Shown: in pieces, positions 17,420-44,246 of the stretch
Layout: the number at the start of each line of letters is the position of its first letter
Numbering within the stretch: position 1 is the first letter of the stretch
Virus record (IMG/VR): IMGVR_UViG_3300025012_000002
Span: 1 to 64,000 of that record
Direction: 5' to 3' (one strand)
DNA from: a virus
DNA: 64,000 nt
The notes under the pieces: model-generated
Told to the model about the DNA's origin: nothing
What the model saw: only the letters and a program-made list of their open reading frames with translations
The model's database searches: none
Position numbers and translations under genes: made by a program

Positions 17420-18526
17420 CTACTGCTTAGAACCCTTAGCTATAGCGAAGGAATTTGGGAGCCCAATACCAATCTGCTCAATAAATGCCCAGCCTTTTCT
17501 TGTCTGACCAATAACATAGTTGTTAAATGGTTCGGAAAAGAGATCAATCCTTATTCCGAAGTCACCCAAATATTCAGGGGCAGTCACGGCATATACAACT
17601 CCTGCAGGAACTACTTCAAATGTATTGGTACCAGCAGAAGTGATTATCTGTGCATTGTATATATTACCGATGTAACCAGAAAGAATTAACTCCCTTTCGG
17701 TAACAGGGTCAACACCAGCTGACATTGTGGTCTGTATATCAACCAGCTCTGCCCTGCTGATAAGGAACTTGTCAACCATAAGCCTGTTCTTTTCTACCTG
17801 ATACATAATATCAGCGAAAGCAGTGAGGCCCAATGATGCGAAATAAGTAACATCATTGCTGGTTGCGGCGGCAGCTTCTAGAGCAGCTACAAGTGCCTTG
17901 TCTTCCTGACGCTCTATATCCTGGCGAGCAAAATCCTGCGCCCTATCAAGACCATCATACTGCATCTGATAGATATCAGTGATATCGATATCAACGAAGC
18001 TTGTGATCTTAAATTCGGCAGGCATTATATACTTACCAGTAACCTGACTAACTGGGGTCTGGCCGTCCTGACCAACCATCCACGCTGTAACCTGCTTAGC
18101 AACGTCCTTGGTGATCCTGAACTGTTCGCCCTGAGCAAGAGGCCTTACTCTGAGCAGCTTCCTTGACCATGACTCGTAGTCTATGATTTCCTTGACTGGA
18201 GCCAAGAGTTCAGAGCCGATCATCTTAAATCCCTCGGTATCATTAAGGGCAGCTTGAATAGCTTCTCTCTTAGCCTGCTTATCGAGTGCGCTTTCTTTCC
18301 TAATACCGCCCTTAGAAGCATCAGCTACTGCTGACTGATAAGCATTGATGGTCTGTGTGAGAGCATCTTTTTTATCATAGGCATTTACCTGACCATTACC
18401 ATCGAATGCCTTACCAGCACCCCTAGCAATAGACCCGTCTCCTTTTATCCCACCAAAAGCGGCTGGATTGTAAGCAGAACCATCCGCGGCTACATGTTTT
18501 GCTGTCTTTCTGTATGGATTAACCAT
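17420..18526 (-). CDS. Major capsid protein, HK97 fold
   Basis: A 368-residue protein. Residues 1-100 are a charged helical N-terminal region like an HK97 delta domain. From ~105 the protein shows HK97-fold features: an N-arm and spine region (LLAPVKEIIDYESWSRKLL), a long helix rich in Arg/Asp/Gln (RAQDFARQDIERQEDKALV) and the family-like region VDKFLISRAELVDIQ. GFKMIGS at residues 99-105 resembles the S-F-K-[IL]-x-[AS] motif repeated in other head proteins and sits where a delta domain would be cut. The gene is richer in G/C than its neighbours. It has its own terminator downstream. Confidence 0.85.
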   Translation of the reverse strand: MVNPYRKTAKHVAADGSAYNPAAFGGIKGDGSIARGAGKAFDGNGQVNAYDKKDALTQTINAYQSAVADASKGGIRKESALDKQAKREAIQAALNDTEGFKMIGSELLAPVKEIIDYESWSRKLLRVRPLAQGEQFRITKDVAKQVTAWMVGQDGQTPVSQVTGKYIMPAEFKITSFVDIDITDIYQMQYDGLDRAQDFARQDIERQEDKALVAALEAAAATSNDVTYFASLGLTAFADIMYQVEKNRLMVDKFLISRAELVDIQTTMSAGVDPVTERELILSGYIGNIYNAQIITSAGTNTFEVVPAGVVYAVTAPEYLGDFGIRIDLFSEPFNNYVIGQTRKGWAFIEQIGIGLPNSFAIAKGSKQ

Positions 18527-20271: not shown

Positions 20272-23200
20272 TTAACTCCTAAATATTCCTTTTATGCTTG
20301 GAAACTTGCTCTTAGCTACTTCCGAAGAAGACTTAAATATAGGATTACCCTCTACTGCTTCTTTGGCTTTGGTATTAACAACAACCTCTTTCTTAGCATA
20401 AGAAGCTGTTACTGGTGCAACATTAAGCCCATTCAAATCATTCTCTACCTCAATAAGAGCATCCTCAGAAAGATTCATTGCTCTATCTGACTCTGCTAAA
20501 ATATTTGAGAAGAACTTCTTAGCACCTTTATTAAATGCTGCTTCGATAAGACAGTTTGCGTCCACACCTTCTAATGCAGGAACTACTTCACCAGTAGGAA
20601 GTTCAAACTCAGAAGTAAGTACATCGTACATTGCTGCCTTAAGCTCATTATCAATAAGATTAAGATTAGCCCTTCTTATTGATATATTGAGCGCCCTCTT
20701 TAGTCTTGCTTCATAAGATTTCTTAAATAAATCCATCTCCTGAGCAATTCTGGTTTCTGCTATTTCTGTTGCTGTCTTAGAGATTACTTCTTCGTACTCT
20801 TTGGAACCAACCTTAATAACTTCACCCTTGTCTTCTGCTATGTCGTCTTGTCCGCCACCATAAATATGGTCGGCGTTTGATTCTCTATCTACACCTTTGA
20901 TATCATCAATTCCATTCTCTACCACACCATCTTTAGCCTCATCTTTCTTGTCAGCTAAATCTGTGATGGGACTGTCAAGAATATTAGCTACCTTTTCTGC
21001 TACCATTTTAGCGTAAATATTTGAGGTGACGGTTTCTCCGCTACTAAGAGTTTCTGATATTGGGTGGGTTTCCGCCAAATCAAATGCAATTTTAATCGCT
21101 GATATAGCGTCCAGCATCTCTGGTGAGCTGGTTGACTTGCCTTCTGCTATCGCCTGGTCTGTCAGAGCTTTAATTATCATTCTAACATCTTCTGTGGAGG
21201 CCTTCTTAGATTCTTTTGGTTCCATTATATCAGTAATAGGAGCTTCTATTTCGGTTTCAATTTTATCTTCTTCTTTTTCTTTCTTCTCTTCTGTGGGATG
21301 CAAATATAGTTCTTTAATTACATCAACCAACTTATCCTGTTTTGGTGCTGAAAGTTTATCTTTTTCTATAAGATCCTCAGCTATCTGCATAACTTCATTA
21401 AATCTCTTAATGTCCGCAGTTTTGGTAGCTTTTAGATCATTAGTAGCACCCTCTGTTACACCACCCTCTTCTTTGATATCGCCTCGGTATACATCAGCTA
21501 CATCATCTGACCCGCCTTCTTCAACACCATTAGTGGGTTTCTTCTTCTCTTCTCCCCTAATATCATCTTCTGCCCCTTCTAAAATAGAAGCAGGCTCATT
21601 AGATGTCGCATCATAAAGAGAAACTCTGTATTCAGCCGCAGTCTTTTCAGCACCATCTTCTAAAAGTGACTTGCATATACTTTGACCAAATTCATCGCTC
21701 TCAAAAGCTTCTTTTGTAATATTAAAAGAATTATCTATAGCAAAAATATTCTTAGATCCTTCCTTAAAAATCCACTCATCTCCACAAAGAGCTATCTCTA
21801 AATCAGCCTTCTTAGTCTTTATCTTATTATCTATGTCAGACCAGAGCTTAGATTTTTGGTCCTTAGCTGCCTGTACTGAGTTGATCGCGTCACCAAGCTC
21901 TAGTACGTTATCTACTGCGATGGTGTCTATTCCAGCGGACTCCATTATCCCAGCAAACTTAGGCTCAATAGCTTTCATCTGCTCTACTGTGAGCTTACCT
22001 GCAAGCTTCTTCTTCTTAATGTCCTTGACAAGCTCCTCACCATAAGAACCCCAATACTTCTTCCAGTACTCTTCTGCTTTACTATCAAGAGCAAGCTTTT
22101 CTATGAAAGCCGCCTTCCAAAGAGAGGGAACCTTACCGCTACCCTTCCCAGGATTGCTCCATAATGATGGAACTTTTCCAGTTGATTTCCCTGGGCTCTT
22201 CCATGCCGAAGGTACTTTTCCTTCTGCAATCTTGACATAGGGATTTTTAGTAGCACTAACTGCTCCAAACTCATTGGCTGACATAGGCTTTAGCTCCTCT
22301 GTATTTGATTTTTCTATAAATTTATCTAAGTTAGTTTCAACTTCAGTTTCTGATTCCTGTTCTATATTAGTAATAGCAGAGTCTTCTACTTTCTTCTGCT
22401 TAAATTTAGTTTCAACTTTAAAGGCTTGTTTTTTTAAATCAGGAGTATCAGACGCGTACACCCATTCTGGATTATTTATTTTTAACCACCCTTTAGTAGG
22501 TACAAAATATTCTGTAGACAGTCTATTACCTTTAGCGTCAAGCTCGCCAGTTTCGTTCCAGGGGCGAAGTTCGGTATTAGGTATAGCATTATACTCCTCT
22601 TCAGTAAGCGCTCTATCAGATGCATTAACACTATAATTTTTTAGAATAGTAACGCCATTATTCTCTAATCTTATTTTTGTAAACACGTGCCAATTTGGAC
22701 CGTTGACATCATGAATAAGCCTCTCTTCATTTGCTTTTTTATTCATAGCCCCAAGTGACTCCTCAATTTTAGATAGTCTATTAGATAATATTAAAATAGA
22801 AGATTCATCTTCCATCTTATGCTTCTTTTCAGCTTCTTTTAATTTAGCATTAATACCTAATACTTCGCTAACTAATGCTTGAGGATCCGCTGGGTCGTCT
22901 ACCCAAGATTCTTCTTGAAAACAAACTTTATAACATTTTTCATAGGCTTTCTTGCCTTCAAATAATTTACCTTTTAATCCACCACGAATGTGATCTGGAC
23001 ATAGTTCATCAGAAGAAGATGCTATGTGCCCACATATGCTACAATGACATTCTTCGCTAAAACAACCCATTGACATACTATTAATATCACCCTTAAGTAT
23101 GCCTTCTGCAATCTTTCTATCTTTGGTCTTATCTACAGCAACAAGAATTTCTACAAACTTATTGTCGCTATCCATATCATTATAATGAGCATCTAATATA

Positions 23201-23571
23201 ACACCACGAGCTTGTGTTGGATCGTCTGCTCTATGGTTGATATGATTTGGTTTTAAATTAAACGTCTGGAATACTCTGCAACCATATTTAGGATCAAATC
23301 TTAAAAGTTCGTCTGCAGGAAATGCATCATTATTTTCGTTAGGTACATCTGCTGTAAGTGCTCTTGATATTACAAATATATAATCGTTAGGATTCTTGGA
23401 AATTTTATAGGTATCAGCCACATTCTCAATAGCAGCTTTGACGTCTACCTTAGTTCCGTTATTTTGGAAAAAGGATGATGTCTTTATTTGAGATGCATTT
23501 CTCGTAAAACCAGCTTCGGAGGTATTACGAAATGCTAATATGTCAGCCTTTGATGTTTTGTAAAATGACAA
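20272..23571 (-). CDS. Prohead protease fused to long scaffold
   Basis: A 1099-residue protein. Residues ~60-175 resemble prohead serine proteases: FQTFNLKPNHINHR (candidate catalytic His110 or His113) and GDINSMSMGC (candidate Ser165/167). A Cys/His insert follows (C170, C175, C177, C180, C191, H194), probably a zinc knuckle. The rest is long, acidic, Glu/Lys/Asp-rich and helical, as in scaffolds, with three GKVPS-W repeats near residues 450-490. A K-K-x-A-F-K-V segment (~378) matches the recurring cleavage-like motif, consistent with self-processing. Located between portal and capsid genes as expected. Confidence 0.75.
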   Translation of the reverse strand: MSFYKTSKADILAFRNTSEAGFTRNASQIKTSSFFQNNGTKVDVKAAIENVADTYKISKNPNDYIFVISRALTADVPNENNDAFPADELLRFDPKYGCRVFQTFNLKPNHINHRADDPTQARGVILDAHYNDMDSDNKFVEILVAVDKTKDRKIAEGILKGDINSMSMGCFSEECHCSICGHIASSSDELCPDHIRGGLKGKLFEGKKAYEKCYKVCFQEESWVDDPADPQALVSEVLGINAKLKEAEKKHKMEDESSILILSNRLSKIEESLGAMNKKANEERLIHDVNGPNWHVFTKIRLENNGVTILKNYSVNASDRALTEEEYNAIPNTELRPWNETGELDAKGNRLSTEYFVPTKGWLKINNPEWVYASDTPDLKKQAFKVETKFKQKKVEDSAITNIEQESETEVETNLDKFIEKSNTEELKPMSANEFGAVSATKNPYVKIAEGKVPSAWKSPGKSTGKVPSLWSNPGKGSGKVPSLWKAAFIEKLALDSKAEEYWKKYWGSYGEELVKDIKKKKLAGKLTVEQMKAIEPKFAGIMESAGIDTIAVDNVLELGDAINSVQAAKDQKSKLWSDIDNKIKTKKADLEIALCGDEWIFKEGSKNIFAIDNSFNITKEAFESDEFGQSICKSLLEDGAEKTAAEYRVSLYDATSNEPASILEGAEDDIRGEEKKKPTNGVEEGGSDDVADVYRGDIKEEGGVTEGATNDLKATKTADIKRFNEVMQIAEDLIEKDKLSAPKQDKLVDVIKELYLHPTEEKKEKEEDKIETEIEAPITDIMEPKESKKASTEDVRMIIKALTDQAIAEGKSTSSPEMLDAISAIKIAFDLAETHPISETLSSGETVTSNIYAKMVAEKVANILDSPITDLADKKDEAKDGVVENGIDDIKGVDRESNADHIYGGGQDDIAEDKGEVIKVGSKEYEEVISKTATEIAETRIAQEMDLFKKSYEARLKRALNISIRRANLNLIDNELKAAMYDVLTSEFELPTGEVVPALEGVDANCLIEAAFNKGAKKFFSNILAESDRAMNLSEDALIEVENDLNGLNVAPVTASYAKKEVVVNTKAKEAVEGNPIFKSSSEVAKSKFPSIKGIFRS

Positions 23572-25071: not shown

Positions 25072-27300
25072 CTATTTCTTCTTAGTCTTCCGATATTTCT
25101 TGATAGCTTTATCTGATAAATTCCCACCACTTCTTACAAGAAAATCATTATCAGAATATATATTACCTTCACCAGTTAAGAACGCATCATCTTGCTCTTT
25201 GACTTTTTCTTGTATCTTAGCTATCTTATCCTTAAATATATCACTAATAGTTTTATCAATTTTAGAATGTAGCTCCGCATCAGTGGCAGCAGCTAAATTT
25301 AAAGTTTCTACTGCATCTTCTAATTTATCATTTAATGAAGCTTCAATTATATGTTTTCTTACTAATGCTTTTCTTACATATTCTATTTCAGCATCACTAA
25401 AATTCTCATCTTCCATATATTCACTTATTCTATCCCAATTACAATTCTTAATAAACTCGTTATTACCTTCTCCCTTAGATTTAATATAAGACCAAATTTG
25501 GGATTCAGTATTACCAGTTTCCATTAAATCAATTAAATCATCTACATCGTTAGCAGTAACTTTAAAGCCTCTTTTAGAGGGAGCTTGCTTAGATGCTGGG
25601 GCCGGTGTAATTGGAGGAGCCCCGGGGGCCACCTCGGCAGCTTCTTCTGGAGTTGGTGCTTCTCCTTCTGGAGGTAATCCGACAGGTGCTGCTTCTGGTA
25701 AACTACCCTCTTCTACTGGTGTCATTGGTAGTTCTTCTGACATTGACAATGGCATCCCACCACCGGGAAGAATTTCTTGGGCTATATCTTCTGGACGTTT
25801 ATCCTTGACATCTTCAGGTAATATTTTCTTTCTAAGTTGCTTTTCTATCTTCTGCTCGGTAAGAGCATTAACAGTTTCTCCTTCAAAGTCAAGCCCCGCT
25901 GCAGCAAATGACGTGGTCTTGCTTGACTTAACACCAAGATCATTAAGGAGCCTAATTGCTTCTAACATATCCTTATCTACTACAGGCTCTAATAATTGTC
26001 TCCATTTAATCTTAGGTACTATGAGACGTTGTTCGTTGGCATTTTTCTTAATACGGACGCGATGGGAGATCTCCGAAGTTGATCTGTGGTGCCACTCATT
26101 TATCTCAGCCAATGGTTTGAAGAATTTATTATGAAACCACATAGATTCAAAGAACTTGCGCATACCTTTAAGTCTGAGTAGCAGAGTATTAAGATTGGTC
26201 TTGCTCGCTGCGAACGTTGACTCGCCGTGCATCATGCCTGCTGAAACGCCTAATGCAGTCATTTTTACGCGCTCTATAATATCATACTCTCTACTAATAC
26301 TCATCATCCTATCAGTAGTCCCAAACGCCTCAAACTGTATACCATAATTAGGCAGTACAATCATAGCATGTGGGTCTGATTCTGCTATAGTAAATTGTTG
26401 AACTATCTCATCAAAAAATTCTTTGGGTGGAATAAATTGATGCTCTGGGGAGCCGATTTTTACGATTTTAATAGGGCCGGAATGACGTTTTGCTGTTTGG
26501 ATACTAGCGTTCATGATTGAGGATTCGTACATCGAAATCTGCCACATTCTCGGCATAATACTTGTACCACGAACATCATACGGAAATAATTTTCTTGCTA
26601 AAAATGAAACATTAAATTTTGTATTTAGTGGTACATTTTGCCCAGACGCAATTGCCGAAACTATCTCTGCAGGTAATGTCTGTATATAATCCAATACTTG
26701 GGGGTGCTGTGATGTTATGAACTTACGTAAACCTTCATCTGGGCAGAACTCCAAGATAGTTGGAACGTTGAGAAATGAGGAACTCAACACATTTACTTGA
26801 TCCGGATTATGGAATATTAAATCGCTCCATACTCCCTTAGACTCATCAAATATTAAATGAGGAATCACTTCCCCCACTACTAAGAATTCTTTTATAAAGT
26901 ATTGAAATAGCGATACTATAGACGTATTATCTATAGCTTGCTCATACGCTCTCTTAACCTCTCCTGTAATTCCCTCTCCATATAAATCCATATCGGATGT
27001 AAGCATTTCAGAAAACATATCTATAACAGAACCCACAATGGGGTCGGTCCGATAAAATAATCTCCAATATCTATTGGCCTGGTGACGATCTATAGGGAAA
27101 TTTATCTTAGATGGGTCGCCGAATTCGGGCTGGTACGGGGTTGGTACACTAAAAAATACCCCGCCAGTATCTGCCGTCTTGTTCATTTCTTTTTGTAATT
27201 CAGATACAGCGGCAGCTTGCTTATTACCATGCACCATCTGAGGAGAGACAAAAGATGATAAATTTTTAATCGCTGCTTGATTTGCAACTTTTTTTGCCAT
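25072..27300 (-). CDS. Portal protein with processed C-terminal extension
   Basis: A 742-residue protein. Residues ~50-470 have portal features (HQANRYWRLFYRTDPIVGSV, QYFIKEFLVVGEVIPHLIF, then LNTLLLRLKGMRKFFESMW). The portal is the dodecameric DNA gate at the head vertex. A Pro/Glu/Ala-rich linker follows, then SKRGFKVTAND near residue 575, a match to the recurring S-F-K-[ILV]-x-A motif, then ~160 helical residues. Cleavage there would release a C-terminal fragment. It sits between terminase-side genes and protease/scaffold, the usual head order. Confidence 0.8.
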   Translation of the reverse strand: MAKKVANQAAIKNLSSFVSPQMVHGNKQAAAVSELQKEMNKTADTGGVFFSVPTPYQPEFGDPSKINFPIDRHQANRYWRLFYRTDPIVGSVIDMFSEMLTSDMDLYGEGITGEVKRAYEQAIDNTSIVSLFQYFIKEFLVVGEVIPHLIFDESKGVWSDLIFHNPDQVNVLSSSFLNVPTILEFCPDEGLRKFITSQHPQVLDYIQTLPAEIVSAIASGQNVPLNTKFNVSFLARKLFPYDVRGTSIMPRMWQISMYESSIMNASIQTAKRHSGPIKIVKIGSPEHQFIPPKEFFDEIVQQFTIAESDPHAMIVLPNYGIQFEAFGTTDRMMSISREYDIIERVKMTALGVSAGMMHGESTFAASKTNLNTLLLRLKGMRKFFESMWFHNKFFKPLAEINEWHHRSTSEISHRVRIKKNANEQRLIVPKIKWRQLLEPVVDKDMLEAIRLLNDLGVKSSKTTSFAAAGLDFEGETVNALTEQKIEKQLRKKILPEDVKDKRPEDIAQEILPGGGMPLSMSEELPMTPVEEGSLPEAAPVGLPPEGEAPTPEEAAEVAPGAPPITPAPASKQAPSKRGFKVTANDVDDLIDLMETGNTESQIWSYIKSKGEGNNEFIKNCNWDRISEYMEDENFSDAEIEYVRKALVRKHIIEASLNDKLEDAVETLNLAAATDAELHSKIDKTISDIFKDKIAKIQEKVKEQDDAFLTGEGNIYSDNDFLVRSGGNLSDKAIKKYRKTKKK

Positions 27301-27887: not shown

Positions 27888-28565
27888 TTATTTTATTTTT
27901 ATAGGGTAGGCAGCTGGATTTTGGTAAGGTTCTTCTGATAATCCCCAATCACTAAAAGCTGCCATTATAAACTGCTTGGTCCCGATTTCCCCAGATGTGC
28001 TTGGGTCGCCATAGTTATCGCCAGCAAACACGTATTGGTCTCTTATTTCCCACGGCTCAATGTAACGTCCTTCTGTAACATTACCATCACGATCTCTGTA
28101 TGTTACTTTTAGTAATAATTGTTTTTTGGCAGCTTCTTTAATTGCTGATAATATATCAGATATGTCTGCTTCTTCTTTCTCATCTATCTCCTCTTCATCC
28201 TCTACAGGTTCCTCTTCTACTTCGTCAATAGGCTCTTCTTTGATTGGGACAGAAATACCTACATCTGAAATAGAGATCTCTTCATCTTTATTTTCTTTAA
28301 AACGTTCTACTAATTCGTTATATTTATCTTTATTAATTTCCAGGAATTGAACATTTGGATTATCTTTTTGCCAATGTTTTTGTGCTCTCTCAAATTCTCT
28401 CTTATTTAATTGTTCTGTATGAAATATTTTGGCATTATCAATTAAAGCATAATATGCGGCATCTATTATAAAAAATGATTTTTTAATAATATCCATACTC
28501 ATAAGGTCTGTTAGTTTAAATGATTTTTTTATATCACCTAACTCAGATAGTTTAAAAATTTTCAT
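27888..28565 (-). CDS. Minor head protein candidate with WYL-like C-terminal domain
   Basis: A 225-residue protein. Near the N-terminus it has two copies of the recurring motif (KKSFKLTD, residues 13-20, and KKSFFIID, residues 28-35). The middle is very acidic (EEEPVEDEEEIDEKEEADI). The last ~85 residues (VTYRDRDGNVTEGRYIEPWE) resemble a WYL domain, which binds nucleic acid or nucleotides in bacterial regulators. It overlaps the preceding gene by four bases. If the motif is cut, the WYL-like part would be a separate virion peptide. Confidence 0.5.
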   Translation of the reverse strand: MKIFKLSELGDIKKSFKLTDLMSMDIIKKSFFIIDAAYYALIDNAKIFHTEQLNKREFERAQKHWQKDNPNVQFLEINKDKYNELVERFKENKDEEISISDVGISVPIKEEPIDEVEEEPVEDEEEIDEKEEADISDILSAIKEAAKKQLLLKVTYRDRDGNVTEGRYIEPWEIRDQYVFAGDNYGDPSTSGEIGTKQFIMAAFSDWGLSEEPYQNPAAYPIKIK

Positions 28566-31144
28566 ATTTCCGTGCCTATAAACTCTTCTAATAATTTTTT
28601 AGCATCTGCAAGATTATCACTTTCTATATAGTCATACATCTTTACTACGGACTCATCATCCGCTTCTCTGAAAAATTGCTGTAATTCTTCGAAGCCTTCT
28701 TCACCAGGCAGCACGAATACATACTTAGCATTTACAAAACTTTTTTTTGATTTCATTTTTTCAATCCTTTTATCTATGTAAGATTGCTGCTCTGGGCTAA
28801 TATCTTGGTATTTCGCTATCATTTTTAAATTATCATATTTATGCTTAGATCTTCTTATTGCTAAATTAATTTGTTCGGGAGATAATTTATATGTTCTTAA
28901 AATAAAATGATAACCTTTTCCCTCTCTCAGTGCTTTACTAAACACACTAGTCTTTTGTTCTTCACTTAAATCTTCTTTGCGCAGTAAATATATTAATGCT
29001 ATTCCTTTTTCTATACATTTATTAATAACAACTTTCTTTTGTTCGGGAGTTAAGCTAATATATTTAAGTAGATCTAATAAACCTAATCCAGTCTCTATTG
29101 CTTTTTTAACAGCGTAATCCTGCTGCTCCGGGGTAAGTAATCTATTCTTAAATAAGAAATGTAACCCAACACCTTCTTCTAATGCCTTTTGAACTAATAC
29201 AGTTTTTCTTTCTGCAGGTAGATCAAAATTTCTAAGAATATATATTAAATTAGTACCATCATCCATTGCTTTTTTATACAATGAATTGATAAGATGCTTA
29301 TATTGAGCATCTGATAAACTTTCTTTTTCATTCTCATATAAATATATAAGTGCAACACTCTTCTCAATAGCTCTATTAACTGCTCTCTGCTTCTGAGTGT
29401 CAGACATTTTCTGATATTTTAATAAAATGGATAAATCTTTCCCTTTATCAATAGCGTCTTCAATTTGTTCGGCTGCTAATTGATAATTTTTAAATACGTA
29501 AGACTTCTCAGTAAATGCATCGTATGCCTCTTGAGAAACTGCTGGCTTATCTTCTTCGTCCTGTGCTACTACTTTGAATGATTTATTTTTACTACCGATA
29601 GATTGTGTTGGCAGAATCTTTGATACTCTAACTTCTCTCGTTACTGTTTCAAATGGCTCTATAAATGTAGAAGAGGGTAAACCTACGCCTGTGCCTCTAT
29701 ATGGATAAATATTAGAGTCCCCGTAATAAGGTTTAGGATTTAGACCATCCGCGCGTGATTCGTCTTTTTCTATACCATCGGTTCTTTTTCTAAACTCTTC
29801 ATATGCCCCATATAATTCTGTAGCATATGAATTATATATAGCAATAAATTCAGACTTATTTACTTTATCTAATTTATCTGATAATTCATCCCATTTAGTT
29901 ATTATAGCTTCTCTACTTATTCCTTTTTTCTGCCATACTTCTACTGCCATATTGATTAACTTTTCCTTATATTCAGAAGTAAGTTCGCTAAGATACTTAT
30001 TTTGTAAACTGCTCCCCCAGTTTAATTTAATAGACATAATATTAAATGATTTTTTATCTCCAGATAGTACGATATTTTCGTACTTTTCGGAGGAGGTTTT
30101 TACTTTCTTAACATCATATATATATTTTCTTCTTGGCTTAAATACCTTTGTTTCAAAAAATGGCCTGGGAGATAAATCCTCTACTGGGATTTTAGATAAG
30201 TTTTCTCCCGGTTCCTTGCCACGCATGAATGGTAGATGGCCTTCTCCTGGCTGAGTTACTGGGCGTTTATGAAATCCATCAGGAAAGTCTCTCCTGGGCA
30301 TTAATTGATAACCTTCTTCCATAACATCTCTATTTTGAGTTTCAAAGGAGTTTAGATTAAATGATTTTTTAGATTGCATATCATACTGCTGTAAAATACT
30401 TTCAGCCCAATCCAATACTTCTTTTTCTTGATTAGGAGTAAAGAATCTTGAGAATTGTTCTGGGTGGGCGATTCTATATAATTTAACAGATGCTGCTGCT
30501 AAAACATCGTCGCCTCCCCATTGTCTTATAAACCCACCAAAATCTCTTCTGTTCCCCATAAAGTATGTTTTTATATCAGATTTTGTTAGTGCTAATAAGT
30601 CATCTAAGTGCAGATTATATTTTTTTATTTTTTCTGATAAGATGTCTTGTATTCTATAAGCTACTCTGCACCAATCGGGTAATATGCTGCTTAATTTATC
30701 CAACCACTCTACATTATTCTCGCGTACAGTATGTTGTGGTTTACGCACAGGAATAGGCTTAGCTTTATTTTCGTTATTTGTTTCTATCCCACTACTTCCT
30801 GGTCCTAACATACTGTGACCACTATCAGATGGATTCTCTGTAATAAATTTTAAACGTTTTTTGGTAGGTAACACTCCTAATTCTTTATATGATTTTTCTT
30901 TCTTTTTAGATTTATTCGGTAATTTATTTTTAATTCTAGAGTCGTCATTTACCATAATATCATCTGTTTGCTCTCTTCTCATGATAGGGGATAATGTTCT
31001 TTCCGATTGATTTTTAGGCTCTAAATTCCAACCATCGGATGGGGCGGGCATACGGATAGGATTCTGCAATCCTATAGATGGAGATTTACGATCCTCAAAA
31101 TACATATCAGTAAAAACACTATTTAAATTAAATGATTTTTTCAT
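28562..31144 (-). CDS. Polyprotein-like minor head protein with motif-separated modules and helical repeats
   Basis: An 860-residue protein with five copies of the recurring motif: KKSFNLNS (2-9), KKSFNLNS (259-266), KKSFNIMS (364-371), NKSFKVVA (520-527) and KKSFVNA (800-806). The third module holds a helical domain with KWDELSDKLDKV. Residues ~550-795 are tandem ~36-residue helical repeats with the pattern LLK..LTPEQ...I.KAIE.G..L, about seven copies, like a TPR/solenoid. The final 55 residues form a small acidic domain. I infer prohead-protease processing into about five peptides. No enzyme motif seen. Confidence 0.55.
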   Translation of the reverse strand: MKKSFNLNSVFTDMYFEDRKSPSIGLQNPIRMPAPSDGWNLEPKNQSERTLSPIMRREQTDDIMVNDDSRIKNKLPNKSKKKEKSYKELGVLPTKKRLKFITENPSDSGHSMLGPGSSGIETNNENKAKPIPVRKPQHTVRENNVEWLDKLSSILPDWCRVAYRIQDILSEKIKKYNLHLDDLLALTKSDIKTYFMGNRRDFGGFIRQWGGDDVLAAASVKLYRIAHPEQFSRFFTPNQEKEVLDWAESILQQYDMQSKKSFNLNSFETQNRDVMEEGYQLMPRRDFPDGFHKRPVTQPGEGHLPFMRGKEPGENLSKIPVEDLSPRPFFETKVFKPRRKYIYDVKKVKTSSEKYENIVLSGDKKSFNIMSIKLNWGSSLQNKYLSELTSEYKEKLINMAVEVWQKKGISREAIITKWDELSDKLDKVNKSEFIAIYNSYATELYGAYEEFRKRTDGIEKDESRADGLNPKPYYGDSNIYPYRGTGVGLPSSTFIEPFETVTREVRVSKILPTQSIGSKNKSFKVVAQDEEDKPAVSQEAYDAFTEKSYVFKNYQLAAEQIEDAIDKGKDLSILLKYQKMSDTQKQRAVNRAIEKSVALIYLYENEKESLSDAQYKHLINSLYKKAMDDGTNLIYILRNFDLPAERKTVLVQKALEEGVGLHFLFKNRLLTPEQQDYAVKKAIETGLGLLDLLKYISLTPEQKKVVINKCIEKGIALIYLLRKEDLSEEQKTSVFSKALREGKGYHFILRTYKLSPEQINLAIRRSKHKYDNLKMIAKYQDISPEQQSYIDKRIEKMKSKKSFVNAKYVFVLPGEEGFEELQQFFREADDESVVKMYDYIESDNLADAKKLLEEFIGTEI

Positions 31145-34138: not shown

Positions 34139-34159
34139 ATAATAATAATTAAATTATAA

Positions 34160-34188: not shown

Positions 34189-34194
34189 CTATTT

Positions 34195-34481
34195 ATGGAA
34201 TATGAAGACTGTAAAAATGTCCAGAAAAACTATGCAAAGTATCTGCGACAAATATATTTAATGATGGTAAGTATTGCATAGTGCCTCCGTGTACTACATT
34301 TTTCGAAGAAATTTGTAGTGGTGCATATTTTATAGTCGGGAGGTGCAATACTCTACTAAGTGATGCTAAAAAACTAAACAATTTTGCAGAGTCGATTAAA
34401 TATCTACTAAATGAATGTAACATATCTTTAGAAAGTGCCATATATCTTACCAAGCTATCGCCAGAATCCTACTCTAGCTGA
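34195..34481 (+). pseudogene. LTKIK-family gene broken by a frameshift
   Basis: ATG at 34195 reads MEYEDCKNVQKN. Adding one A to the A-run near 34213-34217 gives MEYEDCKKCPEKLCKVSATN and joins in frame to IVPPCTTFFEEICSG and the C-terminal NISLESAIYLTKLS. The one-base loss in a homopolymer is either a real decay event or a sequencing error. The 3' end runs 27 bases into the antisense of the terminase gene. Confidence 0.65.
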
Positions 34482-37400
34482 GGTTGGCATTAGCCCACTT
34501 TGTACTGCTACACTCATTGCATTTTTAAAATTCTTAGACTTGCCTGTAGTGGATACCTGTTCTTGTACATTCTTGTGCACCATTACAGCCACTGCAGCGC
34601 AGTCATTATGCTCATTTGATCTGTGATCGACTGTCTTTAAATCTGCACTTCTTTCTAAATTTAATAATTCATGCACAAGTCTTCCATAATCTGACATACC
34701 TTTAACTGGTGCGTACGGGTCTAGATATTCATCTTCAGCTACAGGGGGTATTAACTGAACTTTACTTTCATACGCATCTATAACAAATCTCATATAATCT
34801 TCAGCTTTGACATTATATGTTGCTGTCTCGATTTGCATGTTGCTTAGATCTTGTAAAATACTTTCTGATTGCCAATGGTCAAATGCAACTGATTGTATTT
34901 TTTGTCTTTGCTTAATTCTATTTAATATGTCTACAATACAATCATAATAAATAGTTTTACGTGGTTTGACAGATGGTCTTATCGTAACGCACCAATCCAT
35001 TATGGTGCACCATTTCTTTTCTATTCCGTTTGGCGTGTGAACATCTTTATACTCACCATGACCGCAAGCTAAAGCAAAACTATCCTTGGATTTACCTGCG
35101 TCACCAGCTATATAATATGATGTTAATCTATCAAAATCAGCATGCTTTAGTATTTTACCTGCATACATTCTCCCCATACCATCCACAGGAGTAGTGTCTT
35201 CAAATGTTGCTTTTGGTTTTAGATTTGGATTAATACATTTTCTAAAACGTTCTTCATCTGTAATAAGAGGCATTTCTGCATTGGGTGGATTTGCGCCAAA
35301 GTCTCTCTCTGCTCCAATAGGGTCTCTCTGAAATCTTGATTCTAAACTTTCTCTTGTAATCTTAGGATTAAATTTCCAAGTAGGGTAATGTACAGCAAAA
35401 ACATTTTTATCTTTTTTAGCAGTCTTAAGAAGTTTCATTGTCATATCATTGTTATGAATGGGTGAACTTACTGCGTTCATCATTCCAAAAATATATGGCA
35501 ATTGTCTTCTATCGGTTTCTCCTCTTACAGTAGCTAAACCATTATCAATAACATTATAAACTTCTTTTGCCCCCCTACGACTTTCTCCTACTGAAGTTTC
35601 AAATCTGCTTAGCTCGTCTACTACGGCCCAAACACGTGTTCTACCAGCTAGCCCTCCGGAATTGGAATTATAGGTACCTATATTACCTACTATATAAGAG
35701 TGGTCATTTGAAACTGTTAGATTATATACAGGATCAGAATTAATTATCTTTTTAATACTTTTAATTGGGAAGTAAATATAATCGTCGTCTACTTTACATA
35801 AATTTTTAATAGGGCTTATTTTTACATCAATAAATTTATTATTCGCGCCCCAGATTTCTTCGGCTAACTTAAATGTTTGATTACCCCCCATATTAACATA
35901 GTAGCCAATAGATTTACCATTCTTATTAAATTTAGTAATTCTATATTTATGCTCTACAATTCCAGAATAATAACCTAGTTGGCATAAAATCATTTGTACC
36001 TGTTGAGCTAAGATTTTTGAAGCCGTGTTATATGTGATATTAGGGCATCTTTGTTTTTTTAAATGATGAGTACCATCACCCCTAAATAGCCCTCTGATAA
36101 GTTCCATTTTAAGATTTAATGGCCATCTCATCACATCCTCAGAGAGTTTCTTTGTTTTTGAAAAGACGCCGCCGTTTGTCTCCAACCATTCTGCTGTCTC
36201 AATTGCATTTTTTCCAGATGTAAAAGTTACACACGCCTTAGCGTCTTTTCTTAAATATGTATTGTAGTGAATTTTATATTTATCACAAATATAGTATATA
36301 TCTTTAACCCATGTATGTAGTTCATCTTTATGGAATGTGAACTCCGATCCCAACCTTTTATAGCCAGATTTGTACGTAGTTCTATTACTACAGCCCTCGG
36401 CGATGTAATAACCTAATAATCTAGCTTGCTCTGGGGAGACGTCTGTCTTGATCTCTTCAAATTTTCTAGGCATAAATAAGTAATCGTTTACACCGAGATC
36501 TTCCGCTATAACGTCTTGTAGTGGGTTATATTCCAGAGGAAGTCTTCTTACGTGCCCTCCGCTACCCTCTGCTATACGCATCTTAAATTTTCTACCATTA
36601 CCTTGATGCCCCTTTATAAAAGAGCGCCCTGTATCGAGCTCAGCCCCACATCCACAGTAACATTTCTTGGGCCACACATATGCTGGAAATCTATGGTTAT
36701 TGGTACATTTAAATTTAGTACCACCATAAACTGTTATTTCTAAAATTTCTTTGGGTGCGCCCTCACACCAAACACTCTCTACTTTTTGTGTGTAGCCTTT
36801 TCTATCTAGTACTTGATCACCAATCTGTATGTCTTCTATATTCTTATATGTGTAGTTGCTTAATAAAATTTGTGTACCTTTGGTAAAGCAATGCAAGGAA
36901 TTGAATTCTGTATTTAGTTCTTTGTAATATATGGTTTTATTTGTTTCGTTATATAGTGTTTGCTTAAATAACCCTCTTCTTGTTTCTTCCTGTTTCAAAT
37001 GTTCTATATAAGCTTGTATCCAAGGGGACTGTTCTCGTGCCGCTCTAAAATATGCATAAATGGTTCCTTCCGATTGAACCTCTGTGGTTGCTGTAAATGC
37101 CACCTCAAATGGCTGCCCAGGAAAAACATCAAAGTAAGATGAGGGGTTACCTAATGTTATTATTAAATGTTCTATGTAGGTGCCTAAATAAGCCCCTGCC
37201 ATGACACTTTTACCAGAACGCATACCAACGCATGCCACAAAAGTATTATAACGTTTAAAGATACCATCTGTTTCAAATTCTCTTCTTGTAGTATTGCAAG
37301 ATGGGCAAACATCGTCATGGTGCTTTGGGGACCATGCTAATAAATTCTCTGATTCTAAATATTCTCTTCCTTTATCCCAACAATCTATAGACTGTCTATC

Positions 37401-37721
37401 TAATTTATTGCATAATGGGCATCTTAATTGAAACAAATCTCGTATTGTTTGATACTGTCTTTTATAATCAAACAAAGATGGTTGATTTAAGAACTTCTCA
37501 CTAGTGCTCCATTCTATAATATTAGGAGCTTGTATGGAAAAGTCTATAGCATATTTGTCTACTGCTTGTGTAGATTCGCCTACGCTATCTTTATTCCAAT
37601 CAATTTTTTCTCCGCCAATAATATGCTTATCAAATAATCCTGATATCTCAGAACCAATATCATCTAATGATATATTTGACCGCATGTCTACTGTGGGAGA
37701 ATCTTTTTTAGGACGTGCCAT
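34455..37721 (-). CDS. terL: Terminase large subunit, intein-containing
   Basis: A 1088-residue precursor; the mature terminase is about 680 residues. It packages DNA into proheads as ATPase and nuclease. A zinc-ribbon-like pair (CPLC at 101-104, CPSC at 139-142) precedes Walker A GMRSGKS (166-172). After an intein (278-685) come Walker B (VWAVVDELSRF, Asp702/Glu703) and the nuclease domain beginning YYIAGDAGKSKDSFALACGH (Asp874) with a later AFDHWQS. The intein lies between the ATPase motifs, a typical insertion at a conserved site. It follows the small-terminase candidate by three bases. Confidence 0.9.
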   Translation of the reverse strand: MARPKKDSPTVDMRSNISLDDIGSEISGLFDKHIIGGEKIDWNKDSVGESTQAVDKYAIDFSIQAPNIIEWSTSEKFLNQPSLFDYKRQYQTIRDLFQLRCPLCNKLDRQSIDCWDKGREYLESENLLAWSPKHHDDVCPSCNTTRREFETDGIFKRYNTFVACVGMRSGKSVMAGAYLGTYIEHLIITLGNPSSYFDVFPGQPFEVAFTATTEVQSEGTIYAYFRAAREQSPWIQAYIEHLKQEETRRGLFKQTLYNETNKTIYYKELNTEFNSLHCFTKGTQILLSNYTYKNIEDIQIGDQVLDRKGYTQKVESVWCEGAPKEILEITVYGGTKFKCTNNHRFPAYVWPKKCYCGCGAELDTGRSFIKGHQGNGRKFKMRIAEGSGGHVRRLPLEYNPLQDVIAEDLGVNDYLFMPRKFEEIKTDVSPEQARLLGYYIAEGCSNRTTYKSGYKRLGSEFTFHKDELHTWVKDIYYICDKYKIHYNTYLRKDAKACVTFTSGKNAIETAEWLETNGGVFSKTKKLSEDVMRWPLNLKMELIRGLFRGDGTHHLKKQRCPNITYNTASKILAQQVQMILCQLGYYSGIVEHKYRITKFNKNGKSIGYYVNMGGNQTFKLAEEIWGANNKFIDVKISPIKNLCKVDDDYIYFPIKSIKKIINSDPVYNLTVSNDHSYIVGNIGTYNSNSGGLAGRTRVWAVVDELSRFETSVGESRRGAKEVYNVIDNGLATVRGETDRRQLPYIFGMMNAVSSPIHNNDMTMKLLKTAKKDKNVFAVHYPTWKFNPKITRESLESRFQRDPIGAERDFGANPPNAEMPLITDEERFRKCINPNLKPKATFEDTTPVDGMGRMYAGKILKHADFDRLTSYYIAGDAGKSKDSFALACGHGEYKDVHTPNGIEKKWCTIMDWCVTIRPSVKPRKTIYYDCIVDILNRIKQRQKIQSVAFDHWQSESILQDLSNMQIETATYNVKAEDYMRFVIDAYESKVQLIPPVAEDEYLDPYAPVKGMSDYGRLVHELLNLERSADLKTVDHRSNEHNDCAAVAVMVHKNVQEQVSTTGKSKNFKNAMSVAVQSGLMPTSARVGFWR
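35667..36890 (-). other. Intein with LAGLIDADG homing endonuclease in terL
   Basis: Residues 278-685 of the terminase. It starts CFTKGTQILLSNYTYKNIED (Cys1 nucleophile, block A), has a block B-like NNHRF, two LAGLIDADG helices (LLGYYIAEGC and LIRGLFRGDG), block F VYNLTVSNDHSYIVGN, and ends GTYN before Ser686. The penultimate residue is Tyr rather than the usual His, known in some active inteins but able to slow C-terminal cleavage. Confidence 0.85.
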
Positions 37722-39159: not shown

Positions 39160-42100
39160 CTACCATTTCCAAGTTTTTTCAAAACCTTTTTTATTTTTTA
39201 CTTTATTCCAAAATTTTTCTGCTTCCTTTTCAGATATTATATTAGTATCAAAACGTATGGCCTGAAGAGCTTTATTTTTTTCTTTAATTAAATCTCCGAC
39301 TAAGAATGTAATCCCAGCTGGGGCTTTTACTCCAGCCCACTCTGACCAGCGCCTAAATGAGTCTTTATCAAAGGCTTTAGGATCTACAAGTCTATGCCTG
39401 CCTTCTCCTCCGCCTTCTGGATTGAGTAAAATCGGGCTGTTGGGATCGTAGAATCCTGCATATAATCTAAAACTCTTAATTGGGTTTAGTACTTTTTGAG
39501 TATTTTCTATGTCATCCGTATCAAATTTTTTATCATTGCCTATAGCTTTTTCAATAGATTTTAACAACCCGACATAGCCGAATCTTTGTAAAAATTTAAA
39601 TAAAATATTTCCTTCACTATCCCAAGCATAATCTTCGTGGCGCTTATCACTAATACTTTGCTCTACTTTAAGTAAATCTACAATATTATTATCTATTTCT
39701 TCTATCTTGGTATTTAACTTCTCTACAAATAACCCTTTTTGTTCTTCGGATAAGTAGTCAATCAAATCCTGAATCATCTCTGCATCTGTGACATCTCGTT
39801 TTAATTCACCTATTTGAATGTCTAATTCTTTTGCAATCTCTTTAGCTCTATTAATAATTTCAGGATATATTTTCTCTATATCAAAATCCACAGTAATAAC
39901 TTTAGGTTCTTTTATCCAAGTATTATTTAATAAATCGTAAACACCATCTGAAGGTGCTACGGATAAATCTTCTGGTATTTCAAAATAGAACTCTAATGGG
40001 TGCTGCGTTCCTTCTATAGTCTCTGATTCGGCTTTATTTAATGTCTTACGCCAACTTTTATCTATTAATTCTATGAGGTCGGCTTCATTGCCCTGAAATA
40101 TTCCTAACATATTTTGGAGATTCAAATAACAGTGAACGTCCAAATCTGTATTTCTATTATACTGGTATGAAGTTAAACTTCCCACTACATAAATTTTAGT
40201 TATAATTTCTTTAGCACTATATCCTTGCGATTCTATAAATTTGTTAAGTTTATTGAGTATTTGTGATTTTACATTCTCATTTATGGTACCATCAAAATTC
40301 CATACTTTAGGTTCTAATCCAGGCTTAGGATAATCTAATATAGAAGAATTTATTTTAAATGATTTTTTAGCTATCCTGTTGATTCCAATTTTATGGCTTT
40401 TAAAAAACCTAACTTCTTTATACTTATCATGATAACCTATCTTATCCATTAACCTATTTGATTTATCTAGGGCTTCTTCTACATACCCAGCTTCAGGATA
40501 AATCATTATATTAAGTATACCATCTCTTATAATGTACGAACCTCTGGTAATCTTATCAAAAATATTTGGGGATACTGGAAATCCTATATTGGTAAACCAT
40601 TCTATGTGAGTAATATCTCCAGTAGCGGCATCTACTATATCATCATATATAGCCCAAGGACCATATATAATATCTTCGGCATTAATTTTAAATGATTTTT
40701 TACTTGCACTCAACTTCTCTAAAACTTTTTTTATAGTAGCATCTTTCTTTTCAAAAGTGTCTAAAGATTTAATATCCACAGGAACTGCTACTAATCCTGT
40801 GGTCTTATTTAAAGAATACGCTGTGCGCAAAGAGCCTCGTCTTTTTAATAAAGTGGTATCTAAACGTAACATATCATTTTCTCGCACTATACCCAACTTT
40901 ATTTTATCAGATTCTAATGATTTAAGCAAGCGTTTTGTATACTCTCTTGCTCTATCAACTTCCCATAATTCCCTAAGTTTTGCTATACAGTGGAATCCTC
41001 TGTTCCCGCTATAGTGGATTTTTACATGCTTTACATTGGAGTCCTTGTTAAAAATATTATATATCTTTTTAGTTATTTCTTTTGTATCTTTCCAAGGGAA
41101 ATTTTCTTTGGGGTCTACATCACAAAAAATAATATCAGTAAGACAAGTATCCCTTTTTTCTTGACATATTTCAGAGTGTATCTCAATCATTCTACCATTA
41201 TTAATACGGTTAAAATCATTATAATTATCTACCTTGACTATACCATCATGTTTACGTTTTAATATATCACCATTAACTCTGAGATATAATAAAACATTCT
41301 TACCGCGAGTTTGTTGTAATATTTTGTCTTTTACTTTATCATAAAATTCCCACACATCTTTTTCTCTAAGATCATATCTTAAAAATTCTCCTTTAGAAAA
41401 AATTACTGTATTAGGGTGATTTGGGTAATAAGCTTCTAGTTTAAATGATTTTTTATCAAATAATTTTATTTCTCCAGATGGCTTGATAATACTTATCTTA
41501 TCATACCCTATAGCCTTAACTTTATCCATGTCAGCAATTAATTGAGACAAGTTAGTAATTCTATCGGAGTACTTATTTAAATTAAAATCAAATCTATCTA
41601 ATCTAGTAGAATGTATTTTTGTATCATTGAATGCTATATCTAGTGGCTGACCTTCGTAAAATCTTTGCATATACACATACTCATACTTAGGTAGTTCACC
41701 ATACTCTGACAAAAACCAATCATCATAAGATTTAAGATCAGCATTTATTTTAAAACTTTTTTTAGTCAATTCTTTTTCTAAATCAGGAATCTGAATAAGT
41801 CTGAGATCGGTCTCTGTTACTTTTTTATCCTCGCGTAATCTAATAAATCTGGGTTTGATTAGTGTAGCAGCTAATCTTTCTTCTTCTAATTGTCCCCATT
41901 CGCCATTAATGAATTTAAAACTTTCTGTTTCTTTTACAATAGGGCGTTCATAGTCTACTTCTACAATTCTTGGATTTTTATTTATATCAATCCATAAAAG
42001 CTCATCATGATTAGGAGCTAGGGCTTTATTTTCGTTTGCATAATTTAACCACTCCACTCTGTCTTCGTCTGTCAATCCTGTACCAACAAATGAAGTACTT

Positions 42101-42795
42101 CTGAATATGCCGTCCTTATCCATCAATGCTAAAAATAAAGAACTAGCAAAGCCTTTTTCTAAATTAGGCTTAACCGCAATAACTAAACAATCTATAGTTT
42201 TGGTAGGCTTAATCTTAATAGTATTACCTTCTATATGTAAAACTACACCTTCGTGCCCTTCTCTTAAAACTTCCTCTTCCCACATTTTTTTAATAGCAGA
42301 AGATCCGTCTTCATTTTTTGCATATACAGGATGAACATACTTACCGTCTTCAAATAATTCTTGTACTAACAGCAATCTCTTCCAGTAGTCGTTCTCCTCT
42401 ACTAATTTTCCATCATATTTATAAATATCAAATATGCCAAATTTAATTCTATGCTCATCTTCTGGTGATTTTGGTTTTCTTGTGATTGATATTGTCTCAT
42501 TTAACGGTAGTTCTCTACCGTCAGCATCTATACCATACAATTCACCAAATAAAATTGTTTCTTGTTTATCATTTAACATCTTAGAAATCTCAGTCAATAC
42601 AGGTAGTTCTTCTGTAATACGCCCCTCGCGAGTAGCAAGGTAAGTCTTACCATCAAGATATTTTGCTATATGCAAAATCCCATCTATTTTAGTTGAAACG
42701 ACAAGAGGCTTATCACCAACAAAAGCCTCTATCTCCTCATAATTTTTTGATTTAAAATCTAGTTGTTCCTTGTACTTATCTAACAATAAGACCAA
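39160..42795 (-). CDS. Polyprotein: ATP-dependent DNA ligase + archaeo-eukaryotic primase + nucleotidyltransferase
   Basis: A 1211-residue protein cut into modules by five motif copies: KKSFKINA (345-352), KKSFKLEA (448-455), KKSFKINA (699-706), KKSFKINS (810-817) and KSFRLYA (1107-1113). Module 1 is an ATP-dependent ligase: KIDG (Lys36), FGELYG, FGIFDIYKYDG, EGVVLH, KIKP, then an OB domain. Module 3 is a LigD-polymerase/PriS-like primase: FCDVDP (Asp559, Asp561), YSGNRGFH (596-602), RLDT (Asp646), RGSLRTAYS. Module 5 has a nucleotidyltransferase core: VVGSLTS and TDLDVH (Asp884, Asp886). Modules 2, 4 and 6 are small and unknown. It resembles a split LigD, located among head genes. Confidence 0.8.
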   Translation of the reverse strand: MVLLLDKYKEQLDFKSKNYEEIEAFVGDKPLVVSTKIDGILHIAKYLDGKTYLATREGRITEELPVLTEISKMLNDKQETILFGELYGIDADGRELPLNETISITRKPKSPEDEHRIKFGIFDIYKYDGKLVEENDYWKRLLLVQELFEDGKYVHPVYAKNEDGSSAIKKMWEEEVLREGHEGVVLHIEGNTIKIKPTKTIDCLVIAVKPNLEKGFASSLFLALMDKDGIFRSTSFVGTGLTDEDRVEWLNYANENKALAPNHDELLWIDINKNPRIVEVDYERPIVKETESFKFINGEWGQLEEERLAATLIKPRFIRLREDKKVTETDLRLIQIPDLEKELTKKSFKINADLKSYDDWFLSEYGELPKYEYVYMQRFYEGQPLDIAFNDTKIHSTRLDRFDFNLNKYSDRITNLSQLIADMDKVKAIGYDKISIIKPSGEIKLFDKKSFKLEAYYPNHPNTVIFSKGEFLRYDLREKDVWEFYDKVKDKILQQTRGKNVLLYLRVNGDILKRKHDGIVKVDNYNDFNRINNGRMIEIHSEICQEKRDTCLTDIIFCDVDPKENFPWKDTKEITKKIYNIFNKDSNVKHVKIHYSGNRGFHCIAKLRELWEVDRAREYTKRLLKSLESDKIKLGIVRENDMLRLDTTLLKRRGSLRTAYSLNKTTGLVAVPVDIKSLDTFEKKDATIKKVLEKLSASKKSFKINAEDIIYGPWAIYDDIVDAATGDITHIEWFTNIGFPVSPNIFDKITRGSYIIRDGILNIMIYPEAGYVEEALDKSNRLMDKIGYHDKYKEVRFFKSHKIGINRIAKKSFKINSSILDYPKPGLEPKVWNFDGTINENVKSQILNKLNKFIESQGYSAKEIITKIYVVGSLTSYQYNRNTDLDVHCYLNLQNMLGIFQGNEADLIELIDKSWRKTLNKAESETIEGTQHPLEFYFEIPEDLSVAPSDGVYDLLNNTWIKEPKVITVDFDIEKIYPEIINRAKEIAKELDIQIGELKRDVTDAEMIQDLIDYLSEEQKGLFVEKLNTKIEEIDNNIVDLLKVEQSISDKRHEDYAWDSEGNILFKFLQRFGYVGLLKSIEKAIGNDKKFDTDDIENTQKVLNPIKSFRLYAGFYDPNSPILLNPEGGGEGRHRLVDPKAFDKDSFRRWSEWAGVKAPAGITFLVGDLIKEKNKALQAIRFDTNIISEKEAEKFWNKVKNKKGFEKTWKW

Positions 42796-42848: not shown

Positions 42849-44246
42849 TCAGATTGAAAACAAATTTCTTTTTATTTTAGGAACGACTCTATCTTTGAAT
42901 GTATCCAAAATTTTCCTGTCCATCGGCTGGGAAGATGCCCTGGGATTAACTGTGGTGTAAAATGTCCCACTTTTGGTTAGATCGTCTATTGCGGATTGGG
43001 ATATGATATAAGATTTGCCATCTACAGTCATAGTGGAGGGCTCTATGAAACTACCCTCTTTAATAGGCATTGATATATCAATATACTTGTGCACATTTGA
43101 TAGTGTCTTGAATCCCAATGTCAAATGTACTTCCCCATTTAGCATATTATTACTTGTGGATGCATTTTTCATAGCATTAAATTTAATAGTTGGTGCTAAT
43201 GGGAATCTATAATTTGATAAAAATTTACGTGCAAATGTAACTGCCCGTTGAGAAACATTATTTGGGTTAAGCTTATAATTGCTACTCCCGATTGTGTTAA
43301 CAAAAGATGCTGCAGTTTTGTTAGCTTTCTTTTGTTTTAGATTTTTAGCTTCTCTGCTAGATTCTTTATAAACCATTAGAATAGGTGCAGCTAAATCTTT
43401 ATGATAACCAACTTCATCTATATAAAGATGTGATGGTAGCATAAATACTGCTCTATCTAAAAATGAATTTTCTTCTGTATCTGGATTATCTAATATTTTG
43501 TCATTTAATTTTAGAGAACTAACATCTACCTTTTCCTGAGTTTCATAGTTTACTAAATCCGAACCGTTCCATTCATAACGTGCCGCCTCTACCTCTACTA
43601 TAGCCACCTTTTCTTCGACACTCAACTTAAAAGACTTGGTCGCGATAATAGACTCTCTGTATTCCTCCCTTTCGGTTCTATCTATTAATCCGCCACCTAA
43701 ATCACCCCTTGATGTATCTGTATAACTTGTTTTACCTGACTTAGCATCCTGAAGCATGTTATATGCTTGGTTATGCTCTATCCCATAACTATCTGATAAT
43801 TTATTTATTATAGTGGGGTCATCTAAACCGTATGCAACTGCTTTGCTTATATAATCCTCTGGTGTGTTTACTTCGTAATTCATTGCTTCCTTTTTAGAGG
43901 CTGTCATAGGTATAACTGTTATAAATTCTCTAAATTTAGGATTTACTACATACTTATTATAACCATGATCTAAATAGCCCTCTTTTGTAAGCTTCTGTAT
44001 CTTGCTATCAAAATTAATAGTCTGACCTTGCTCATTACGTGATTTGAAAAACTGCTTGATATGTGAATCAGTTCTTGGTGTATTGCATATTGCTAGTATC
44101 ATTTTTTCATAATCATCTAAACCTTTGAATTTATTCTTACGTTCAGTTTTGTCTTCTGCTGTTTTTTCTATAGATATGCCAGTGCCAGATTTTTTTGTAA
44201 TAAGACTTTCTGCTACTCTATCAAATAAAGATTTTTTATTTATCAT
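42849..44246 (-). CDS. Minor head protein candidate with winged-helix-like N-terminus
   Basis: A 465-residue protein starting MINKKSLFDRVAESLITKKS. Residues ~40-110 (LDDYEKMILAICNTPRTDSH, then KLTKEGYLDHGYNKYVV) look like a winged helix. TKSFKLSVE near residue 200 matches the recurring motif and separates a second beta-rich half. The C-terminus has MDRKILDTFKDRVVPKIKRN. Located directly upstream of the ligase-primase gene in transcription order. No enzyme motif identified. Confidence 0.5.
   Translation of the reverse strand: MINKKSLFDRVAESLITKKSGTGISIEKTAEDKTERKNKFKGLDDYEKMILAICNTPRTDSHIKQFFKSRNEQGQTINFDSKIQKLTKEGYLDHGYNKYVVNPKFREFITVIPMTASKKEAMNYEVNTPEDYISKAVAYGLDDPTIINKLSDSYGIEHNQAYNMLQDAKSGKTSYTDTSRGDLGGGLIDRTEREEYRESIIATKSFKLSVEEKVAIVEVEAARYEWNGSDLVNYETQEKVDVSSLKLNDKILDNPDTEENSFLDRAVFMLPSHLYIDEVGYHKDLAAPILMVYKESSREAKNLKQKKANKTAASFVNTIGSSNYKLNPNNVSQRAVTFARKFLSNYRFPLAPTIKFNAMKNASTSNNMLNGEVHLTLGFKTLSNVHKYIDISMPIKEGSFIEPSTMTVDGKSYIISQSAIDDLTKSGTFYTTVNPRASSQPMDRKILDTFKDRVVPKIKRNLFSI

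Follow-up and report, generated by a model that had tools for sequence, protein, structure and literature searches.

The window analysed here, positions 1 to 64,000 of the phage record IMGVR_UViG_3300025012_000002, covers the first part of a contig of 194,269 bases with 30 bases common to both ends, and contains a head operon in which a single gene joins a DNA ligase, a primase-polymerase and a nucleotidyltransferase. An earlier note on this DNA had proposed a frame of 1211 residues at 39160-42795; that frame is real and runs without interruption, reading on the minus strand from a TTG codon. There is no strong ribosome site upstream of the TTG and the frame is closed by a TAA just 11 codons before it, which leaves the exact start of the protein uncertain. 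The ligase (KIDG 36, EGVVLH 182, KIKP 194), primase (FCDVDP 557, SGNRGFH 596, RLDT 644) and nucleotidyltransferase (GSLTS 872, DLDVH 884) motifs are in place in the translation, every one of those listed earlier among them. A short repeated sequence, referred to below as the tag, lies between the modules of the protein (lengths in amino acids, aa).

39160..42795, minus strand: 1211-aa multi-enzyme (polyvalent) protein; TTG start, uncertain
41761..42795 (residues 1-345), minus strand: module 1, ATP-dependent DNA ligase core with a probable OB fold (Pfam, PDB 2CFM); K36 is the nucleotidyl site
41740..41763 (residues 345-352), minus strand: tag 1, KKSFKINA
41455..41739, minus strand: module 2, about 95 aa, no relatives found
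41431..41454 (residues 448-455), minus strand: tag 2, KKSFKLEA
40702..41430, minus strand: module 3, LigD/PriS-type primase-polymerase with D559/D561, H602 and D646 present
40678..40701 (residues 699-706), minus strand: tag 3, KKSFKINA
40369..40677, minus strand: module 4, about 103 aa, no relatives found
40345..40368 (residues 810-817), minus strand: tag 4, KKSFKINS
39481..40344, minus strand: module 5, Pol-beta-fold nucleotidyltransferase (alignment, model and fold matches), its C-terminal half long and helical
39457..39480 (residues 1106-1113), minus strand: tag 5, IKSFRLYA
39163..39456, minus strand: module 6, about 98 aa, no relatives found

The enzyme identities given in the note are borne out, by Pfam for the ligase and the LigD-type primase-polymerase and by fold matches for the nucleotidyltransferase. 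Residues 22-186 match DNA_ligase_A_M (E 3e-11), and the Pyrococcus DNA ligase 2CFM aligns to residues 43-340, comprising the catalytic and OB parts (E 1e-7). LigD_Prim-Pol covers residues 514-699 (E 5e-13) and DNA_primase_S residues 563-675 (E 4e-7), and in NCBIfam the protein as a whole matches DNA ligase D (TIGR02776) best, in two stretches (E 7e-17). The model of module 3 is of low confidence (predicted local distance difference test, pLDDT, 57), and its top PDB match, the LigD polymerase domain (PolDom), is supportive only. A scan of cellular genomes for relatives of module 3 found none. The 1211-aa protein has no match in PHROGs or PADLOC, back-translated patterns of the whole protein gave no match in IMG/VR, and a search of 50,697 phage records returned matches to the nucleotidyltransferase part only.

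The model of module 5, built from 19 aligned sequences, is better defined (pLDDT 85). Its top fold matches are the AadA/AAD(9), CdnE and MNT adenylyltransferases, all weak and with low template modelling (TM) scores that define the superfamily only. As modelled, module 5 is a member of the Pol-beta superfamily and looks like an adenylyltransferase; a role in DNA repair does not follow from the fold. Its homologues stand alone in many phages. Given this occurrence and the adenylyltransferase-like fold, module 5 need not be part of an end-repair system, and the note's inclusion of it in one is not supported. Separately, stand-alone nucleotidyltransferases of 630-kb phages begin MKLNKFYEFVQSDLE (L002, 14941) or IMLSKFYEFKEVDLE (L003, 14938), resembling a T4-style capsid-targeting start.

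The 1211-aa gene lies among the terminase, portal, protease and capsid genes, as the note had placed it, and several of its neighbours carry the tag or looser versions of it.

43617..43640, minus strand: tag TKSFKLSV, in the protein encoded at 42849-44246
34455..37721, minus strand: large terminase with an intein-like insertion, identified by alignment of the flanking part
28562..31144, minus strand: 860-aa head-operon protein whose tags flank a helical repeat region
27888..28565, minus strand: 225-aa head-operon protein with tag-like IKKSFKLTD and IKKSFFIIDA near its N-terminus
25072..27300, minus strand: portal protein (phrog_16240, E 9e-76)
25552..25575, minus strand: portal tag KRGFKVTA, between the portal core and the C-terminal region
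20272..23571, minus strand: head maturation protease joined in one chain to a long scaffold-like region (phrog_18299, E 1e-39)
17420..18526, minus strand: major capsid protein with an N-terminal extension of about 75 aa, absent in phage G gp27

Five SF[KR]xx[AS] sites had been claimed for the 1211-aa protein. Five sites do fit the stricter pattern K[SG]F[KNR][ILV]x[AS], but the looser motif occurs six times, the sixth copy (SFRRWS, 1146) being without the K-S-F-K context. Counted with the strict pattern over all open reading frames (ORFs), the tag has five sites in the 1211-aa protein and four in the neighbouring 28562-31144 product, so that the 9,450 aa of the head operon hold nine sites and the remaining 49,517 aa hold none. 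Shuffling either protein 20,000 times never gave as many sites as observed; the shuffled mean was 0.0035 for the 1211-aa protein. The 28562-31144 product has the tag at its N-terminus (MKKSFNLNS) and again as KKSFNLNS at 259, KKSFNIMS at 364 and NKSFKVVA at 520, with another KKSF near its C-terminus. A weight matrix finds looser copies in the portal and in the 27888-28565 and 42849-44246 products, and its 12 best scores all fall in the head operon, a ranking that is partly circular as the matrix was built from the same tag sites. Homology allowed three module boundaries to be set, and for two of them a tag is no more than 8 residues away (random p 0.011); the other, the end of the ligase, is 9 residues off and counts as a miss. 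An exact-pattern scan for the tag-encoding sequence gave no match.

The phage has several hundred environmental relatives; among relatives with a name, Virus Rctr197k comes closest (capsid 54%, portal 44%). The slot between terminase and portal is a hot spot where enzyme modules are swapped: it holds a GNAT protein in Rctr197k, a ferritin and inorganic pyrophosphatase protein in G014, a 2H phosphoesterase with a HAD-like stretch in G017, and in G002 a NUDIX protein as well as a nucleotidyltransferase joined to a 2H phosphoesterase. The G014 protein (L108, 13783-16368) combines its ferritin/rubrerythrin domain and pyrophosphatase in one head-operon polypeptide.

Counterparts of two of the three enzymes stand as separate head-operon genes in G053, a distant phage (capsid 23%, portal 26%). 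One, starting 3 bases behind the portal gene, encodes a HAD phosphatase and a primase-polymerase with 34% identity to module 3; against the 50,697 phage records it finds matches via its HAD part alone. The other, between the capsid and protease genes, encodes a nucleotidyltransferase with 41% identity to module 5 that begins MSFVNFKRLSS, and three more nearby genes begin MSSFINFKKLAS, MSFINFKKMTK and MSFVNFKRIAA. An internal copy lies inside the nucleotidyltransferase protein, before a Gly-rich/ferritin-like part, and F[VI]NFK is observed five times in G053 against 0.02 expected. The sequence with which separate head genes of G053 begin is thus similar to the one found at the module joints of the 1211-aa protein. 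The search of related phages suggested by the note thus yielded the primase-polymerase and the nucleotidyltransferase as separate head-operon genes, the latter tagged, but the three-enzyme fusion in one genome only.

Polyvalent proteins of phages and conjugative elements carry several unrelated enzyme domains per polypeptide (Iyer 2017, PMC5512222). The 1211-aa protein likewise unites at least two domains of disparate activity in one chain, encoded on a mobile element beside the portal and terminase packaging genes, and the pyrophosphatase, 2H phosphoesterase and GNAT modules of that class also occur in relatives of the window phage. It differs in placing primpol and Pol-beta nucleotidyltransferase modules, which that survey reports from conjugative-element polyvalent proteins only, in a phage, in the addition of a DNA ligase, and in its repeated inter-module tag, of which none is seen in the available part of that source. 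Since the survey does not mention LigD, DNA ligase or end-joining either, the make-up is, as far as it reaches, new for the phage polyvalent class. The note's statement that no virion-delivered system of this make-up had been described therefore holds for the make-up, but the class of injected multi-enzyme phage proteins was already known (PMC5512222).

We propose, at what we judge to be even chances, that the 1211-aa protein is polyvalent head cargo, whose tags target and perhaps process it, whose modules are injected, and whose ligase and polymerase mend the incoming DNA. In this model, the protein would be produced late, together with the head proteins, and the K-K-S-F-K-x-x-[AS] tags before its modules would act as capsid-targeting and possibly processing signals, comparable to the single capsid-targeting sequence that each T4 internal protein bears. 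The modules would be packed into the head and injected into the cell alongside the DNA, where the ligase and primase-polymerase, in a Ku-less, LigD-like task, may fill or seal gaps, nicks or ends of the genome ahead of phage gene expression, while the nucleotidyltransferase would probably adenylylate a host protein, RNA or small molecule. Packaging, cleavage, injection and an end-repair role are what we infer for this protein. If the model is right, the phage brings DNA repair enzymes along in its head, and repair or closure of its genome could precede all gene expression; the known tasks of injected phage proteins would then extend to DNA repair. Primpol and Pol-beta nucleotidyltransferase modules, which PMC5512222 reports from conjugative elements only, would have a place in phage cargo too, and the tag common to modules and head genes would offer a testable handle on cargo loading in a large, mostly uncultured phage group.

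Several points weigh against this proposal. The fusion of ligase, polymerase and nucleotidyltransferase was found in the present genome alone, and the ligase of G053 sits elsewhere. Modules 2, 4 and 6 are orphans, the search for their relatives being empty, and module 1 has no preceding tag. The ligase and polymerase together score 61.5 bits, far under the LigD equivalog cut-off of 373.2. Ku was not found in the 194-kb contig or in the relatives searched, and the 3'-phosphoesterase domain (LigD_N), which is optional in LigD, was not found in the contig either. Finally, the tag is absent from this phage's own capsid protein and protease.

This last point bears on whether the tag is cut. T4 tags serve targeting and are cleaved too. 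The note had the prohead protease cutting at the tags, for which one would look for the same motif in the phage's own capsid protein and protease; these instead have GIRKESALDK and SFYKTS/GFTRNAS respectively, sharing in part only the F-to-[AS] spacing. As both lack the tag, it may not be the protease's site, and cleavage by the prohead protease is not supported. Among relatives, F-x-K-x-[AS] is found close to the N-terminus of the proteases themselves, and F-x-[KR]-x-[AS] close to the end of the N-terminal extension of many capsid proteins, in both cases with the F-to-[AS] spacing of the tag. The extension of the window capsid protein stops near the start of the phage G capsid protein, which has no extension. 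A family-wide protease site was considered on alignments of the capsid protein and protease and rejected: the relatives' motif is F-x-[KR]-x-[AS] and the window tag F-K-[ILV]-x-[AS], and we do not claim that they are identical. EGFKMIGS in the major capsid protein was also dropped as a tag copy, the segment being conserved among capsid relatives whatever their tag. A capsid-targeting tag, whether cleaved or uncleaved, fits the data equally well as a cut site.

It is quite possible, if somewhat short of even chances, that the protein is packaged without being cut, its tags docking or targeting it to scaffold or shell, and that it is injected whole or kept in the head. The position of the tag at the extreme N-terminus of tagged head proteins, MKKSFNLNS in the window and MSFVNFKR in G053, favours this, as does its absence from the capsid protein and protease of the same phage. 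A multidomain protein that is injected without processing has a precedent in the N4 virion RNA polymerase (PMC5512222). T4 internal proteins are diverse head cargo with only a short capsid-targeting sequence in common (PMC3012670). A common N-terminal tag on several head-operon proteins, as in that system, is present in G053 (four N-terminal copies and one internal) and in the window on the 28562-31144 product. Both systems have a short tag on diverse, here putative, head cargo; the tag sequence is a different one, however, and most of the window tags lie inside one protein, where they separate its modules. The tag-like spacing of the relatives' protease and capsid motifs fits a processing role and, together with the dual function of T4 tags, speaks against cargo that stays uncut.

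A further possibility, which we hold tentatively, is that the modules are counter-defence effectors, the nucleotidyltransferase modifying a host factor and the ligase and polymerase mending restriction or nuclease damage and not natural genome ends. Most polyvalent proteins are conflict effectors (PMC5512222), and the nucleotidyltransferase fold is like that of the MNT and AadA enzymes. One homologue of module 5 is fused to DarA_C in a 1277-aa protein encoded downstream of a terminase gene (L136, 9974-13807). In P1, DarA is located inside the head, is cut by the head protease at its N-terminus and exits the head with the DNA (PMC12810830). P1 DarA and DdrB share with the 1211-aa protein a multidomain make-up and are themselves packaged (PMC12810830, PMC5512222); the 1211-aa protein has other enzymes, however, and no DarA domain was found in it. 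Known anti-defence and defence families gave no match, and a counter-defence role extends the head-cargo model and does not exclude it.

The ligase and polymerase also invite comparison with bacterial LigD, in which an ATP ligase is likewise joined with a LigD/PriS-type polymerase. The parallel drawn in the note holds for the co-occurrence of a ligase and a PolDom-type polymerase, with remote similarity, but not for a canonical LigD system, as the contig has no Ku and the protein no 3'-phosphoesterase domain. In the 1211-aa protein, which falls far under the family cut-offs, the ligase and polymerase modules are about 110 aa apart with tags between them. Mycobacteriophages Omega and Corndog encode their own Ku and borrow LigD from the host (quoted in PMC7719229); the likeness is that of a phage using non-homologous end joining (NHEJ) on its own genome, and the difference that here LigD-like modules are encoded and Ku was not found, although it may come from the host. 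About 3,000 actinobacteriophages searched for NHEJ parts yielded none (PMC7719229). We regard as doubtful the fuller version of the proposal, in which ligase and primase-polymerase are cut apart and injected as a virion-delivered, Ku-less end-joining kit that repairs or closes the genome before expression, with the adenylyltransferase co-injected.

Ligase and primase are classic replication functions, and the protein could be an intracellular replication or repair enzyme that is merely co-transcribed with the head genes and stays unpackaged. We consider this unlikely. The same contig encodes a second, stand-alone ATP-dependent DNA ligase (131577-132707, L009), to which the ligase of the 1211-aa protein is an addition, and with a DnaG-type primase, RecA and SbcC/D-like proteins also encoded, replication and recombination are already served. 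Furthermore, the tags are common to the portal and other head-operon proteins, and the equivalent slot of relatives holds unrelated enzymes (ferritin, pyrophosphatase, 2H, NUDIX). On the other side, a ligase with a LigD-type N-terminal domain in G065 resembles the ordinary gp30 DNA ligases of Campylobacter phages. This G065 protein (L228, 2657-4042) has a LigD-type 3'-phosphoesterase domain, and alike proteins occur in Campylobacter phages; with a nucleotidyltransferase gene nearby it was considered as a second LigD-type head cluster and rejected, and because of that resemblance the cluster is not part of our main evidence. We find it very improbable that module 1 seals RNA and that the whole protein is an RNA-repair device: the nucleotidyltransferase family could use RNA as substrate and one homologue, in G002, is joined to a 2H phosphoesterase, but the ligase fits DNA ligase families, C-terminal OB region included, and for RNA repair the phage has a separate Pnkp-type pair in split form, a kinase-phosphatase protein and a PNKP ligase-domain protein (136297-137670 and 140261-141352 of the contig; L009, L010).

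Some minor features accompany these genes. By eye, intein-like insertions are seen in the terminase (34455-37721) and in a ribonucleotide reductase (57075-60197), and Pfam identifies a RecA intein at 71569-73884 of the contig; in relatives, G002 among them, the portal holds an insertion matching that of the window terminase. Also by eye, an FtsZ/tubulin-like ORF lies near the G002 head genes (33630-34571), a TnpB/OrfB-like, transposase-type ORF between the protease and portal genes of the window (23897-24727), and an S-adenosylmethionine decarboxylase-like ORF near its tail/particle genes (5453-5959).

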